Notes under the pieces: generated by a model
What the model was told of the DNA's origin: nothing
Database searches by the model: none
What the model saw: only the letters and a program-made list of their open reading frames with translations
Translations under genes and position numbers: made by a program
DNA from: a virus
Virus record (IMG/VR): IMGVR_UViG_3300020726_000009
Span: 1-42,082 of that record
Direction: 5' to 3' (one strand)
Length of the DNA stretch: 42,082 nucleotides
Part shown: positions 3,519-13,027 of the stretch, in pieces
Position numbering within the stretch: the stretch's first letter is position 1
How the letters are laid out: each line of letters begins with the position of its first letter

Positions 3519-3931
3519 AAAGGTAACTCCAATTGGCGGTTTGGACGGAATATAATATGAAACATAGTTTGCTCGGGTGATTGCCATCCAGCGGGTTTGA
3601 CGGCATCTGCAACTGTGCCGTCTTGTGGGCGTGTTTGTTTCACGCCCATTTTTTTGGCCATGTTAGCATTGTGGATAGTTTCAAAGCACTCTTGAATCCG
3701 ATCCGCAGTAAGTCCAAGCCTAACACATCCACCAATAGCAAAATAAGCTAAATCTAAAAGACTATCTACACAATCAACAACTGATTCATTTGTTCGAGCT
3801 TCTTCAAGTTCTTCAATTTCTTCTTGCAAAGCCATTACCAACCAACTATGTTCTGCGTCTGTAAGTAGATTGGGTTTACCAGTTTTAACGCCAAGCAACT
3901 TAGTGTTAAATTCATATATGCTATTGATCAT
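3515..3931 (-). CDS. MazG/HisE-like nucleotide pyrophosphohydrolase
   Basis: This 138-aa all-helical protein has the acidic metal-binding helix EEIEELEEA (about 37-45) and the second motif DCVDSLLDLAYFA (about 53-65), the pattern of the all-alpha NTP pyrophosphatase superfamily. HNANMAKK matches the third conserved block. Such enzymes split nucleoside triphosphates to monophosphate plus PPi. In base-modifying phages they can remove the host's normal dNTP. The stop shares bases with the deaminase start and the start abuts the AsnB-like stop. Confidence 0.8.
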   Translation of the reverse strand: MINSIYEFNTKLLGVKTGKPNLLTDAEHSWLVMALQEEIEELEEARTNESVVDCVDSLLDLAYFAIGGCVRLGLTADRIQECFETIHNANMAKKMGVKQTRPQDGTVADAVKPAGWQSPEQTMFHIIFRPNRQLELPL

Positions 3932-5223
3932 TAGTAGATTCCTTTAAACAGGTTAATGTTGTCTTCAATTTGCTTCAAACCGCCATTTTTGATACGTAAA
4001 GTTTTTAATGCTTTCTTTTCTCTATTAAGAATTTCTGAGGGAAGAATATCCTTAAAAGCTTCCTTAAGACAGCGTTTATTTTCCCTATCCGAATAAGAAG
4101 TAGCCATAGCCGCTTTAATTACTTCGGGGGCTAAAAATGGAGTCCTAAGTTCTATAGTTTTTCGCATCATGAGCCGATCAAGTCTTGGAAGATGGTAATA
4201 AGGTAACTCCATGAATACATCAGACATTTGGCTGTCATACTTTTTATTGCGTTCATACCCGCCAAATAGTTCGTCTGCGCCATCGCCAGTTAAGCATACA
4301 TGGTAACCTTTTTTGGCTAAAGAATTAGCTAAAACTGCTTGTGGGTGAACACTACCAAGATCTACTGGGGATTGGTTCCATTCAATAGCTTCTTGATAGG
4401 AAACATTGTCTAACTTAAGGCAGGTAGTGTCTGGATCCACAAGACGAGCAAATTCTGCTTCCTCGTTTTCTACGTGGTAAGATTTTATTTGAGAGCCTAA
4501 TTGTTTAGCTAATAAATAAACAATAGAACTATCTAAACCGCCGGATAATAGGCATGTGACTGGTTGATCGCCGAGTAGTCTGTTCTGAGTTGCTTCTATT
4601 ATGCTTTGGCGTACTCCAATTGAACGTACTGAATTCCAATTCCAATAAGGTTTTATATCCCCGTCGTACCAATAATGCCCTGGGGGTAATTGTCTAATTT
4701 CCGCCCAAGGAGTGCGACCAGTCATATCATAGCCCCACTTTTTAATATTGCTAAAAAAGATAGGATCATAAGTGGTAAAACCGTATTCTTTTAAAGCTAT
4801 TGGTTCAGAAGCAAGTGCTTTCATATCAGTGCGATAGTAAATAGGCTTCTGGCCCAAGTAATCAGTTGCAGCGAATAGTTTGCTATCCATAACAGTCACA
4901 AAAGACCAAAAGCCATCAAAGTCATGAAACCCTTGAAGCCCTTTTGATAAAAATACATCCAAAGCTGCTTTAGTATCTGTATCCTGATGACTAACTCTTT
5001 TAAAGTTAAATACTTCTCCTACTAAAAACCCAATATAGTTTCCAATACGTGCTGGTTGGTCGCCATTACTTGTAAGATCAACTATAGGCAATCTTTGATG
5101 CGCTATATGTATATACCCTTGATGATATTCGCTTGTGTGCCCTGGCAAGCCTCTATATGCCATAGATTCAATTGCTTCTTTAAGGAAAGTCTTTGAACCA
5201 ACTATTGCAGTAAAACCGCACAT
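3931..5223 (-). CDS. Asparagine synthetase B-like amidotransferase
   Basis: The start is set at ATG 5221-5223 so that Cys2 (MCGF) is the N-terminal nucleophile after Met removal; GGAG lies 6 nt upstream. The protein is 430 aa: an Ntn glutaminase domain (1-190), then an ATP-pyrophosphatase domain with PP-loop SGGLDSS (227-233) and GDGADELFGGYERN (313-326), then RTPFL as in AsnB. E. coli AsnB is about 554 aa, so this is short. The glutaminase half is unusual: RGLPG replaces RGPDG, and the usual NGE of the oxyanion hole reads VGE. The AsnB reaction makes asparagine from aspartate, glutamine and ATP, but substrate here is unknown. Confidence 0.85.
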   Translation of the reverse strand: MCGFTAIVGSKTFLKEAIESMAYRGLPGHTSEYHQGYIHIAHQRLPIVDLTSNGDQPARIGNYIGFLVGEVFNFKRVSHQDTDTKAALDVFLSKGLQGFHDFDGFWSFVTVMDSKLFAATDYLGQKPIYYRTDMKALASEPIALKEYGFTTYDPIFFSNIKKWGYDMTGRTPWAEIRQLPPGHYWYDGDIKPYWNWNSVRSIGVRQSIIEATQNRLLGDQPVTCLLSGGLDSSIVYLLAKQLGSQIKSYHVENEEAEFARLVDPDTTCLKLDNVSYQEAIEWNQSPVDLGSVHPQAVLANSLAKKGYHVCLTGDGADELFGGYERNKKYDSQMSDVFMELPYYHLPRLDRLMMRKTIELRTPFLAPEVIKAAMATSYSDRENKRCLKEAFKDILPSEILNREKKALKTLRIKNGGLKQIEDNINLFKGIY

Positions 5224-5224
5224 A

Positions 5225-5740
5225 TTATTCTCCAATCCATTGAGTTAAAGCAGAATAAGAAACTGTGCCCCAGTCGTATTCAAAAATGTCAATACCTTGT
5301 ACTTCTATATCGCCCATTAAATCTTCATAGAGTTCACAAATAAATTTATGGTTCTCTATAACAGCGTTGGTATGGTCTTTTGGCTTATGAGGTTTATAAG
5401 CAAGACTCATATTAGTTAGCATACGTTCTGGGGTATCTAAGTTGCAATAGATAATTCGCTGCGGCAATTTATAGTAGTCTTTGAATACTTCTATATCCAA
5501 TACAGGAGCACGACCAAGTCCTAAGCTATAAATTATTTCTGAAATCCAAGGAGTTCTATCGCATAAATATGTTTGGGGAGCTTTAGCTAATGTTTCCATT
5601 TCAGCTAAAACGTTTAGCATAGTTTCTGGATCTTTAGGACCCCCAGATCTATAAATTGGGTATTCAAAGTCATGTGCAAGTTTTTCAATCAATGTTGATT
5701 TGCCTGCGCCATCAGGACCTTCAAGAATGATTAGACTCAT
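5225..5740 (-). CDS. Deoxynucleoside monophosphate kinase-like P-loop protein
   Basis: This 171-aa protein opens with IILEGPDGAGKSTLIEKL, a Walker A motif in the form used by thymidylate and deoxynucleoside kinases, and has a DRTPW motif at about 61-65 matching the DR(Y/S/T) of these enzymes. Size fits a single-domain kinase. It overlaps the TS-like gene by 4 nt and precedes the AsnB-like gene with one base between, so the three are one translation unit. It would phosphorylate the dNMP made by the TS-like enzyme, or, as in phages with modified thymidine, the base hydroxyl. I cannot tell which. Confidence 0.75.
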   Translation of the reverse strand: MSLIILEGPDGAGKSTLIEKLAHDFEYPIYRSGGPKDPETMLNVLAEMETLAKAPQTYLCDRTPWISEIIYSLGLGRAPVLDIEVFKDYYKLPQRIIYCNLDTPERMLTNMSLAYKPHKPKDHTNAVIENHKFICELYEDLMGDIEVQGIDIFEYDWGTVSYSALTQWIGE

Positions 5741-9730: not shown

Positions 9731-10093
9731 CTAGGCTTTTTGAATAAGCTTCGGGTTTCCTGTAGTACTACCTACATATTCGCTAAAACTTTCAGCGAAT
9801 TCTTTTTTGCCAATTAGCTTTTCTGTTTGTGCAACAGATAACAAACTGCGTGGCATAAAATCTTCAATATCTTTTCCAAGTTGAGCTAGTCTACCTATGA
9901 CTCCGCTTTCCTCTGTCCAGATACGTGATGGACGAGTAGTACCTAGTTCAAAACCTGGTACTTCTGTTCCTTCTTGTGCGATTGATAATGCGTAGTCTTC
10001 TACTGCACTGATCCAAGCTTTAAGATCAGGAATAGCTTTTAAGACTTTGGCTAACTGGTCAACAGTTAAATTCTTTGGCTCAATATTTCTCAT
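9731..10093 (-). CDS. C-terminal part of a split DUF2800-type nuclease
   Basis: This 120-aa protein matches the usual C-terminal half of DUF2800 proteins: LTVDQLAKVLKAIPDLKAW, an ALSIAQEGTEVPGFELGTTR block and a TEKLIGKKEF motif. In many phages these follow the nuclease domain in one chain. Here they form a separate gene whose ATG overlaps the stop of the N-terminal part by 4 nt (ATGA). The two products probably associate. Confidence 0.75.
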   Translation of the reverse strand: MRNIEPKNLTVDQLAKVLKAIPDLKAWISAVEDYALSIAQEGTEVPGFELGTTRPSRIWTEESGVIGRLAQLGKDIEDFMPRSLLSVAQTEKLIGKKEFAESFSEYVGSTTGNPKLIQKA

Positions 10094-10851
10094 GCTTCCT
10101 CCAAGAAGTCATTACGAAGATTCAATTCTATCTTTTCTAAAGCATAGTCCGCACGTACTTCGCATAGGGCTTCTGCTTTACACCATTTGCAATGGTCTCC
10201 AGCTTTGCGTGGACCTCCGATAAGGTTAGTCACAATAGCTGTTGTTGCGCGTTCTTCAAAAGCATTAAGGTCTTTATCGCTTACTAACCATTCACGTACT
10301 GGACCATCACGATGTACTCCTCCTGGTTGGATGATTACCAAACGATATAAAGGTTTCTTACCTAAATGTTTACGTGAAGCAATTGCATAGTTTAAGAGTT
10401 GTGTATTACCTTCAACTTCTACTGGTTGATTACCAGTCTTAAGATCTGCAATCATCAATTCTTTAGCACTGATACCTAAACCATCGATTGTGCCTCCACT
10501 AACTTCTAACCATGGAAAGTAGACTTCAGGAAAGATTTGAGTGGTAGATACTAACACTTTATAGCTATTGAAATAATCAATAGCATAACTAACCCAGTTT
10601 ACTAACTCGTCGTCAGTTGATAACGCATCAGGTACTTTGTTCTCAATCAAGCAACGTTCAAGCAATGTATGAGCTGCTGTACCACGTTGTGCAGCGCGTC
10701 CAGACTTAGTTGCTGGTAAGTCTTTAGTTGCATGATAGTAGCCTTGACAGTTAAGCCATTTGTCACTTGATGATGGAGAAAAGATTGCATGTTCAGGACG
10801 CCCTTCTTCAAGCTTCTTGAACAACTTCGGATAGTTGATTACTCTAGGCAT
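10090..10851 (-). CDS. PD-(D/E)xK exonuclease, N-terminal part of split DUF2800
   Basis: This 253-aa Cas4/RecB-type nuclease has RGTAAHTLLE (His61, Glu65), Asp123 in GGTIDGLG, DLKTG (136-140) and a following QLLNYA. Cys35 together with Cys221, Cys224 and Cys230 (CKWCKAEALC) gives the one-plus-three cysteine pattern of AddB/Cas4 4Fe-4S clusters. It is the first gene after the leftward promoter at 10872-10893 with AAAGGAAA upstream of the start. Likely role: 5' end resection for recombination-dependent replication. Confidence 0.82.
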   Translation of the reverse strand: MPRVINYPKLFKKLEEGRPEHAIFSPSSSDKWLNCQGYYHATKDLPATKSGRAAQRGTAAHTLLERCLIENKVPDALSTDDELVNWVSYAIDYFNSYKVLVSTTQIFPEVYFPWLEVSGGTIDGLGISAKELMIADLKTGNQPVEVEGNTQLLNYAIASRKHLGKKPLYRLVIIQPGGVHRDGPVREWLVSDKDLNAFEERATTAIVTNLIGGPRKAGDHCKWCKAEALCEVRADYALEKIELNLRNDFLEEA

Positions 10852-10871
10852 TTTGATTTTCCTTTTTAAAA

Positions 10872-10893
10872 ATACATGTGTAGTATATCACAA
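10872..10893 (-). promoter_or_regulatory. Extended -10 promoter, copy 3 (main leftward promoter)
   Basis: Minus-strand reading is TTGTGATATACT followed by ACACATGTAT. TGATATACT is an extended -10, identical to copy 2. It lies 21 nt or more upstream of the nuclease start and would drive the whole replication operon. Its upstream edge overlaps the palindrome at 10889-10903, so a bound protein could block it. Confidence 0.7.
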
Positions 10894-10903
10894 ATATTTT
10901 GTG
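10889..10903. promoter_or_regulatory. Operator-like palindrome between divergent promoters
   Basis: CACAAATATTTTGTG is a perfect inverted repeat: six-base arms CACAAA/TTTGTG around TAT. It touches the TG of the leftward extended -10 and lies just upstream of the candidate rightward -10 at 10912. This is a natural place for a regulator to control both directions. The protein that would bind is unknown. Confidence 0.5.
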
Positions 10904-10911
10904 TACTATTT

Positions 10912-10917
10912 TATAAT
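10912..10917 (+). promoter_or_regulatory. Candidate rightward -10 box (TATAAT)
   Basis: A perfect TATAAT lies in the divergent gap, pointing toward the structured RNA and the primase-helicase. No -35 matching TTGACA is seen 16-18 nt upstream, so either an activator or a second -10 (TAGAAT at 10946-10951) may be used. The expected start would be near 10924. Confidence 0.4.
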
Positions 10918-10923
10918 GTGAAA

Positions 10924-11147
10924 AAGATTTAGGTATTTTCTGAGATAGAATAGACAAACTCTTGGAGGAGTTTATGTTATTAAGTCTCCCGTCCGACAAC
11001 ATGTATCACGTGTGCATGTTTGTTCCTCCAACTTCTACAATACCTTTATTGGTGCTAGAGGGGACGGGAGACCTAATAATTAAGGATCAAAAACCATGTG
11101 TTTACACAGCGAAAAAGCTCATAAGTTTGGCGTTTATGAGCTTTTTC
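10924..11147 (+). ncRNA. Candidate structured phage RNA or regulatory leader
   Basis: This stretch has far more pairing than its surroundings. A long outer stem joins TTATTA-a-GTCTCCCGTCC (10977-10994) to GGACGGGAGAC-c-TAATAA (11062-11079), 17 pairs with one mismatch. Inside are hairpins ACAACATG/CATGTTTGT (10996-11003/11015-11023) and CAATA/TATTG (11038-11042/11047-11051), with CCTC/GAGG around the second. Upstream is hairpin AAACTC/GAGTTT (10956-10961/10968-10973). TTGGAGG (10962-10968) can also pair with CCTCCAA (11025-11031), and AGGTATT (10931-10937) with AATACCT (11039-11045), giving a pseudoknot or switch. It ends in a terminator hairpin. The 5' end is inferred. Confidence 0.5.
11111..11147 (+). 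terminator. Intrinsic terminator/attenuator hairpin before the primase-helicase gene
   Basis: GAAAAAGCTCATAA (11111-11124) and TTATGAGCTTTTTC (11134-11147) are perfectly complementary, 14 pairs around a 9-nt loop. The right arm ends in a T run on the plus strand and the left arm in an A run, so it could stop both strands. It sits 32 nt before the primase-helicase start, as expected for an attenuator or for the end of a separate small RNA. Confidence 0.7.
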
Positions 11148-11179
11148 TATCTCAACCTGCTGTTCAAAGAAAGTAGAAG

Positions 11180-13027
11180 ATGGGTAATTATACACCTAAA
11201 AAGGTAGAGTTAGACCCCAAGATTTTAGACCAATCAAGGTGGATACCTTGGTTCCTAGAAGGGGATAAAAAGAAACCTGCAGTTGAATGGAGTGATTACA
11301 ACAATCGCAAACCATTTTCAGACATCAAAGGCAATGTAGGTATCATCTTTGATAAGTCCATAGATTTGTTAGCAGGGTTAGACTTAGATGATTGCATAGA
11401 TGATGAAGGTAAGTACAATGAGCAAGCAACAACTGCTTTATCATTGTTTCAGGGCAAAGCATACATAGAGCGTAGCATTAGTGGTCATGGATTGCACTTT
11501 ATATTCTATGCAGATCTTGGCATTAGCTTTAATGCTAAGCCTATAGAATACTATGAGCAAGGCAGGTATTTCACTTTTAGTGGGGATACAGCTCCAGGAT
11601 CTACTTCAACGCCTCAATATTGTGGTAAAGAGATTAGGGTCTTTGTTCAACAATATGCTCCTCATAAACTTAGCCCTAAAGTCAAAGCAGATAAACATGG
11701 GGAAATTAGTTTAGTATCCCCAACAAAGGTTAAAGAAGCCCTTACTAATATTGACCCCGATTGCAATAGAGGAGATTGGTTCACAGCGGCATGTGCATTG
11801 CACTATGAGTTTGAAGGTAATGAAAAAGGCTTTGAACTCTTTCATGAATGGTCTATGCAGGCTAAAGCTAAGTATGAAGGTGAAGCAGATTGCCGCAGGG
11901 TATGGGAGTCTTTAGGAGACTATGCAGGAGCACCTATCACTATAGGGTCTTTGTTTGAATTAGCTAAGAATAAAGAGTTTAGCCCAGTTTATGAAGATAC
12001 CGTAATATCGGATAACATTTCTATAAGCAAGAATAAGCCTAAATGGCTTACGCTAAGTGATTTAGACCAAAAGCTTGGCCCTATTGAATGGATGATTCAG
12101 GATTACTTTGAAGCTAAAACCATTTCAATTATTTGGGGCGACACTATGGCTTTCAAGTCATTCATAGCTTTAGAGGTGTGTTTCTGCGTGGCAGCGGGCA
12201 TATCATGGCACGGTCAAGAGGTTAATCAGGGCACAGTACTTTATGTGTGTGGCGAAGGTTCTAATGGTATAGCAAGACGTATTGCTGGCCTAAAGCATAA
12301 GTATGGCATTACAGAACATGTTCCTTTGTATGTATCTTCTGGTAGTAGAGACATTATTGAAGTAGATGCTATTAAAGAAGTAATTAGTTTTGGCAGAAGC
12401 CTAGAGACTAAGATTAGCTTAGTCATGATTGATACAGTTAACCGCAACTTTAGTGGGGAAGAGAATTCTTCTAAAGACGTAGCTAAAGCATATAAGCACT
12501 TAGATCAAATTAAAGAAGCTTTTGATTGCTCTATTGCTATGGTACACCATACTGGGAAAAGTGGAACGATCATTAGGGGTTCAGCGGCTTGGGTTCAGAA
12601 CGTTGATGCTTCTTATGAAGTTAAAAGAACTGGAACAACCTTCTTTACTACTTTCTTGCCTTTAAAAATGAAAGATGCAGCTGTTGGACATGAGCTTTAC
12701 TTCCAATTAAAAGAGGTTCATTTAAGAAGGACTTATACCAACCAATTGTCGACGAGTTTGTCGACGTTTTCAACACTTGTGACGGAGAAAGTGGACGAAA
12801 TTAGCGTCGACAATCAACGTAGAGAAGCTACTGGGGCAACGATCAATATTTTGAAATGCTTAGAAGAAAAAGGCGTGGCTACAACCACTAAAGAAATACA
12901 GCAATACTTTGAAGATAACGGCTATGCCATTGATTCTCTTAGAACTTCTTTAGGAAGAATGACTAAGAAAGGCGAAATCTTAAGAGTGAAGCAAGGGCTA
13001 TATGAACTGCCACCACTTACTAAATAA
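11180..13027 (+). CDS. Primase-helicase (AEP prim-pol + RepA-like helicase)
   Basis: This 615-aa multidomain protein has an archaeo-eukaryotic primase domain at 1-160, with catalytic GLDLDD (66-71), SGHGLH (101-106) and GRYFTFSGD (128-136). A PriCT-like helical domain follows at about 180-250 (DWFTAACALHYEF, CRRVWESL). The RepA/AAA-type helicase (about 300-515) has a Walker A variant GDTMAFKSF (320-328), Walker B LVMIDT (414-419) and HHTGKSG (456-462). A C-terminal winged helix (550-612) could bind origin DNA. It is the only gene of the early set on the plus strand. The linker at 520-547 is encoded by the first GTCGAC repeats. Confidence 0.9.
   Translation: MGNYTPKKVELDPKILDQSRWIPWFLEGDKKKPAVEWSDYNNRKPFSDIKGNVGIIFDKSIDLLAGLDLDDCIDDEGKYNEQATTALSLFQGKAYIERSISGHGLHFIFYADLGISFNAKPIEYYEQGRYFTFSGDTAPGSTSTPQYCGKEIRVFVQQYAPHKLSPKVKADKHGEISLVSPTKVKEALTNIDPDCNRGDWFTAACALHYEFEGNEKGFELFHEWSMQAKAKYEGEADCRRVWESLGDYAGAPITIGSLFELAKNKEFSPVYEDTVISDNISISKNKPKWLTLSDLDQKLGPIEWMIQDYFEAKTISIIWGDTMAFKSFIALEVCFCVAAGISWHGQEVNQGTVLYVCGEGSNGIARRIAGLKHKYGITEHVPLYVSSGSRDIIEVDAIKEVISFGRSLETKISLVMIDTVNRNFSGEENSSKDVAKAYKHLDQIKEAFDCSIAMVHHTGKSGTIIRGSAAWVQNVDASYEVKRTGTTFFTTFLPLKMKDAAVGHELYFQLKEVHLRRTYTNQLSTSLSTFSTLVTEKVDEISVDNQRREATGATINILKCLEEKGVATTTKEIQQYFEDNGYAIDSLRTSLGRMTKKGEILRVKQGLYELPPLTK

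Follow-up and report, generated by a model that had tools for sequence, protein, structure and literature searches.

The window analysed here is the whole IMG/VR virus record IMGVR_UViG_3300020726_000009 (42,082 nucleotides), with genes for structural proteins, replication and nucleotide metabolism; the window proteins searched, a subset of all window proteins, included no recognisable integrase or repressor. Two divergent units meet in it, a leftward one encoding an exonuclease, a single-stranded DNA (ssDNA)-binding protein and DNA polymerase A, and a rightward block that opens with a primase-helicase gene (Pfam PriCT_2 2.5e-16 and AAA_25 1e-31; phrog DNA primase/helicase families). Between these units lies the element in question, which an initial annotation had placed at 10924-11147 and described as a structured phage RNA matching no RNA family. 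This description holds, with compensatory changes in three lineages, the same genomic position in each and no Rfam match. More fitting limits for its transcribed part are about 10956-11084 (~130 nt), to which a terminator hairpin reaching to 11147 is added in the window and in the related locus L010. Judged from the comparison of sequences, it is a structured element conserved in fold, position and non-coding nature, most likely a rare conserved structured RNA with which a phage replication operon would gain a leader of a new type. It is very probably uncatalogued so far, as assessed against Rfam and the open-access literature only, an earlier description elsewhere being possible.

The long stem of the initial annotation, with 17 bp and one mismatch between 10977-10994 and 11062-11079 and here named P2, is present: 17 of its 18 positions are paired and one forms an A.C mismatch, and it is the sole 18-bp inverted repeat of the window when up to one mismatch and a gap of 30-110 nt are allowed. 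Folding of positions 10924-11155 yields -79.9 kcal/mol versus -49.9 kcal/mol for dinucleotide shuffles (z -6.6). The inner hairpins, P2a and P3, are possible within the long stem as had been proposed, and the pairing of TTGGAGG with CCTCCAA, one of two 7-nt pairs said to cross it, is retained in the relatives described below; shuffling of the stem interior gives a 7-nt complement of the loop of the upstream hairpin P1 a chance frequency of 0.2% in the window and of 0.2-2.6% per sequence across the members. The letters of the second pair, AGGTATT (10931-10937) and AATACCT (11039-11045), exist as well; their pairing was rejected by comparison, as AATACCT falls in a 14-nt insertion found in the window only and AGGTATT lies upstream of a -10-like box and therefore probably outside the transcript.

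A search with the primase-helicase provided eleven viral loci for comparison. Locus L002 is identical in sequence to the window. In L010 (74-75% amino acid identity in the primase-helicase) and L008/L009 (51-53%) the element directly precedes the gene and is oriented as in the window, which gives three distinct carriers, namely the window, L010 and L008. The position just before the primase-helicase gene that was noted for the window is the same in all three lineages. The loop of P3 reads CTTGC in L010 and L008, and the window has an additional 14-nt hairpin inserted there (11039-11052).

Pairs were counted in Python on a hand alignment of the three members, since MAFFT had misaligned P2 of L008; the alignment was built with the structure in view and the counts lean towards the structure for that reason. 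On this alignment P2 comprises 19 columns, 11 of which show double changes that preserve the pair (e.g., TTAAGTCTCCCGTCC/GGACGGGAGACCTAA versus TTAAGTGAAGATCTCC/GGAGATCTTCACCTAA) and one the invariant A.C mismatch. Sliding the partner strand by 1-3 nt lowers the number of pairs from 17-18 to 5-9. The pseudoknot between 10962-10968 and 11025-11031 has 7 bp in the window and L010 and 6 bp in L008, with one double change from G-C to T-A, and P3 was found to differ as TCTA/TAGA versus TCA/TGA, which amounts to two double changes. The stem of P1 is almost invariant and so adds nothing to the covariation. In P2 the covariation is regarded as decisive for a paired structure; that of the pseudoknot is suggestive, because it consists of one event plus 6-7 complementary bases retained in all three members.

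Table 1. Predicted features of the element and its surroundings in the window.
Feature	Position	Strand	Remarks
-10-like box TAGAAT, putative rightward (primase-helicase) promoter	10946-10951	+	Consensus resemblance only; no clear -35
P1 hairpin AAACTC-TTGGAG-GAGTTT	10956-10973	+	Kept in all three members; hexaloop holds the 5' strand of the pseudoknot
Pseudoknot strand 1, TTGGAGG	10962-10968	+	Pairs with 11025-11031
P2 5' strand TTATTAAGTCTCCCGTCC	10977-10994	+	Pair-preserving double changes in 11 columns
A of the A.C mismatch in P2	10983	+	Opposite C11073; invariant in all three members; minus strand would read G.U wobble
P2a hairpin inside P2	10995-11024	+	Hairpin possible in each member; sequence and length variable, no shared sequence
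Pseudoknot strand 2, CCTCCAA	11025-11031	+	Pairs with 10962-10968
P3 hairpin TTCTA/TAGAG	11033-11060	+	Two double changes, L010 versus the other two
P2 3' strand GGACGGGAGACCTAATAA	11062-11079	+	Partner of 10977-10994
Possible 26-codon leader frame	11096-11176	+	Stop 3 nt before the primase-helicase ATG; open in the window, L010, L004 and L005
Terminator-like hairpin	11111-11147	+	15 bp, -17.5 kcal/mol, z -5.5; flanked by A-run and T-run, could act in both directions
Primase-helicase gene (primase part, PriCT_2, AAA_25/RepA-like helicase)	11180-13027	+	Directly downstream of the element

In all three members exactly 4 nt separate P1 from a preceding -10-like hexamer (TAGAAT in the window, TACAAT in L010 and TATATT in L008), and due to this fixed distance the RNA most likely begins at P1 and runs rightward. 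Strand and start site are suggested by these boxes and by the orientation of the element; no convincing -35 sequence was seen and an automated promoter scan omits these -10-like boxes. A TATACT box of the same kind for the leftward operon is located left of the element, which therefore probably lies outside the leader of that operon. The terminator hairpin of the initial annotation was recovered downstream. L010 and two further relatives, L004 and L005, keep it, and in one of its pairs a change from C to T is compensated by one from G to A; L008 has a different hairpin at this place, without a T-run on the plus side.

Coding alternatives were considered for two frames. A protein frame from 10974, which might have been conserved rather than the stems, was rejected as L010 has no ATG and an early stop and L008 has no corresponding start, and it is the pairs of the stem that covary. 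The 26-codon frame upstream of the primase-helicase shows eight non-synonymous and one synonymous codon changes between the window and L010, so that its peptide is not under evident selection; the hairpin within the frame kept its pairing and it seems to be the hairpin and not the peptide that is conserved. A further proposal was that the upstream hairpin carries a Shine-Dalgarno-like GGAG in its loop. The hairpin itself stands in all three members, the GGAG does not (the loop of L008 is GTGGAT), and a hairpin sequestering a Shine-Dalgarno sequence was rejected since, in addition, no ATG follows the loop in L010 or L008.

Other relatives lack the element. L004 and L005 (73-74% amino acid identity) have TGTACAATA joined directly to ACAAGGATG, and the clean absence is seen at about 2880-2895 of L004 and about 2165-2180 of L005 when these are compared with about 255-375 of L010. 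In L010 the whole element sits between two copies of ACAATA; this piece is missing from L004 and L005. A mobile element between ACAATA repeats was considered for this reason; deletion in L004 and L005 is judged simpler because the element holds its place in the more distant L008. No recognisable element was found in L011. Five degenerate-pattern scans of IMG/VR viral contigs, one of them only among the matches listed and a stricter one complete, gave no fourth member, a structure-descriptor script run over the collected loci returned the same three members only, and primase-helicase searches with the alignment and with L008 added none. A protein search of genome contigs gave no relative; a pattern match in a Bacteroidetes contig was rejected as the fold is absent there. 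Among GenBank phages the DNA of the window and of L010 had no match and that of L008 only short chance matches. Rfam 15 gave no match at gathering scores for the whole window, and permissive thresholds applied to the window, L008 and L010 gave chance-level matches only.

Based on these data, the element would serve the rightward replication transcript as a pseudoknotted 5' leader RNA that acts in cis and controls this operon, an explanation to which a probability of roughly 0.5 is assigned. Such a leader is considered the most likely role because the element is found at the start of the transcript, before one gene, and in two of three members before a terminator-like hairpin; it occupies the same place and orientation in front of orthologous primase-helicase genes at 51-75% amino acid identity. 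Transcription would begin at about 10956-10958 and the nascent RNA would form P1, the long P2 with P2a and P3 inside, and a pseudoknot of 6-7 bp that links the loop of P1 to the segment separating P2a from P3. Once folded, the RNA would set the yield of full-length primase-helicase mRNA or the extent of its translation. For the window and L010 an influence on read-through of the terminator hairpin, which follows after about 30 nt, is conceivable; in a more general way the element may act via its position just before the leader ribosome-binding site. The cis action on termination or translation, and what the element binds, are inferred more weakly, and an effect on RNA stability would be a further possibility. 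The initial annotation had envisaged a pseudoknot or a two-state switch; a pseudoknot is supported for one of the two pairs, and the switch is not supported as the alternative pairing of CCTC (11025-11028) with GAGG (11058-11061), which co-varies between the window and L008, is absent in L010. It is a doubtful, although conceivable, extension that the element founds a new leader RNA family in which a pistol-like pseudoknot, formed by the first part of the transcript, has direct control over whether the replication gene is transcribed or translated, possibly by alternation of CCTC between the P1 loop and the 3' arm of P3.

Several observations weigh against a leader RNA of this kind. Only three distinct members are known, so that the covariation consists of few events, with a single double change in the pseudoknot. 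Folding does not favour the plus strand, with z scores for plus/minus strand of -6.3/-7.2, -4.6/-4.7 and, in L008, -3.7/-6.6; the better folding of the minus strand of L008 is largely due to A.C mismatches that turn into G.U there. The element is dispensable, as L004 and L005 do without it and yet keep the promoter-like box, the terminator hairpin and the gene. As L008 has no T-run on the plus side, attenuation cannot be the mechanism there and pure attenuation cannot be the mechanism for all members.

The surroundings of the element show further features. The DUF2800/PD-(D/E)XK exonuclease consists of two frames with a 4-nt overlap on the minus strand (9731-10093 and 10090-10851 of the window), and as this split is repeated in L008 (680-1042 and 1039-1788) it is taken as a genuine, conserved division of the gene and not as an error of sequencing. 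An operator-like inverted repeat, AGTATATCACAAA...TTTTGTGTACT, is located at 10882-10908 between the divergent units, with similar sequence in L004/L005 and L010. The cumulative GC skew has its minimum at about 10000-11500 of the window, which coincides with the divergent gene switch; an origin is possible. Elsewhere, 3931-5235 encodes an asparagine-synthase-like protein with a glutamine amidotransferase domain, neighboured by dCMP deaminase, thymidylate synthase and thymidylate kinase-like genes.

Other explanations were weighed on the same evidence. The promoter-like box, the compact structured body and the intrinsic-terminator-like hairpin of the window and L010 would also fit a small RNA (10956-11147, about 190 nt) acting in trans, which is released at the terminator and regulates other phage or host messages, the primase-helicase being expressed by read-through or from another promoter. 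This is unlikely, as L008 has no plus-strand terminator right after the element, the element is always found in front of the same gene, and the best antisense match elsewhere in the window (13 nt versus a maximum of 12 nt in 20 shuffles) is not convincing. Quite unlikely is a functional RNA on the minus strand, despite the clearly better folding of L008 on that strand and the conversion to G.U of both the invariant A.C of P2 and the mismatches of an alternative 8-bp P3 (CCTCTAGC/GTTGGAGG). The G.U pairs of P2a in the window and L010 exist on the plus strand only, the fixed -10 box belongs to the plus strand, and no convincing promoter or terminator was seen for the minus strand, where leftward transcription would be stopped by the terminator-like hairpin shortly ahead of the element.

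Compensatory changes would be kept in a DNA hairpin too, and the element adjoins the primase-helicase gene at the minimum of the cumulative GC skew, which raises the question of a DNA-level structure, i.e., an origin or single-strand initiation site for the adjacent primase-helicase with hairpins formed on single-stranded DNA. This is judged improbable, since L004 and L005 have no element at all, transcription explains the fixed distance of the -10 box, and the change in skew falls where the divergent gene blocks meet and can be accounted for without an origin. A self-cleaving ribozyme of the pistol or pseudoknotted-hammerhead type, both of which contain a six-pair pseudoknot (PMC11300833), appears highly improbable: Rfam, which includes these families, gave no match up to E = 10 for the window segment or E = 5 for L008/L010, the hammerhead core CTGANGA is found on neither strand of the three members, and an extra hairpin (P2a) in the junction, the 18-bp P2 and a right-shoulder junction of variable length do not fit. 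Few phages are known to control replication genes by a structured leader RNA, and the putative leader RNA described here combines support from compensatory evolution with a putative promoter and a single downstream gene, in no catalogued family. It also illustrates that RNAs with very few known relatives are verifiable from metagenomic phages.

The leader of the IncI-type plasmid repYZ combines a pseudoknot with a coupled leader peptide, and the partner strand of its pseudoknot lies next to the rep start codon. In the element, too, a replication gene is closely preceded by a pseudoknot and a short reading frame; both pseudoknot strands, in contrast, lie ahead of this frame, and the peptide of the frame is not conserved. 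With the pistol ribozyme and the pseudoknotted hammerhead it shares the pairing of the P1 loop with the junction between the left shoulders of P2 and P3, by 6-7 bp in the element. Pistol ribozymes possess ten highly conserved nucleotides and a constant two-nucleotide right-shoulder junction (PMC4604425), whereas this junction has 1, 3 and 2 nt in the window, L010 and L008, respectively, according to the hand alignment. The element has no conserved catalytic core, and since the conserved cores are absent it is not filed with pistol or hammerhead and the resemblance is topological only. The put RNA of phage HK022, located near an early promoter, renders RNA polymerase resistant to terminators with no phage protein involved. 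It is an antitermination RNA of early transcripts, about 70 nt long, and its two stem-loops form a V (PMC9378689). Both RNAs are structured, and the element is predicted to resemble put in lying at or near the start of a phage transcript with terminators downstream; the element differs in its length, its pseudoknot and its long enclosing stem, and no sequence likeness was found. In phage P4 the CI RNA originates from the immunity leader upstream of the replication genes, and its target sites are outside the CI RNA (PMC4825925). The element would likewise be an RNA in the leader of replication genes, with short complementary segments that could pair in cis or in trans, but those of the element lie within the same fold. 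As neither an integrase nor a repressor was recognised in the set of proteins searched, there would be no lysogeny to protect, unlike in P4. HK022 put and the P4 CI leader may at most be regarded as functional analogues of the element.
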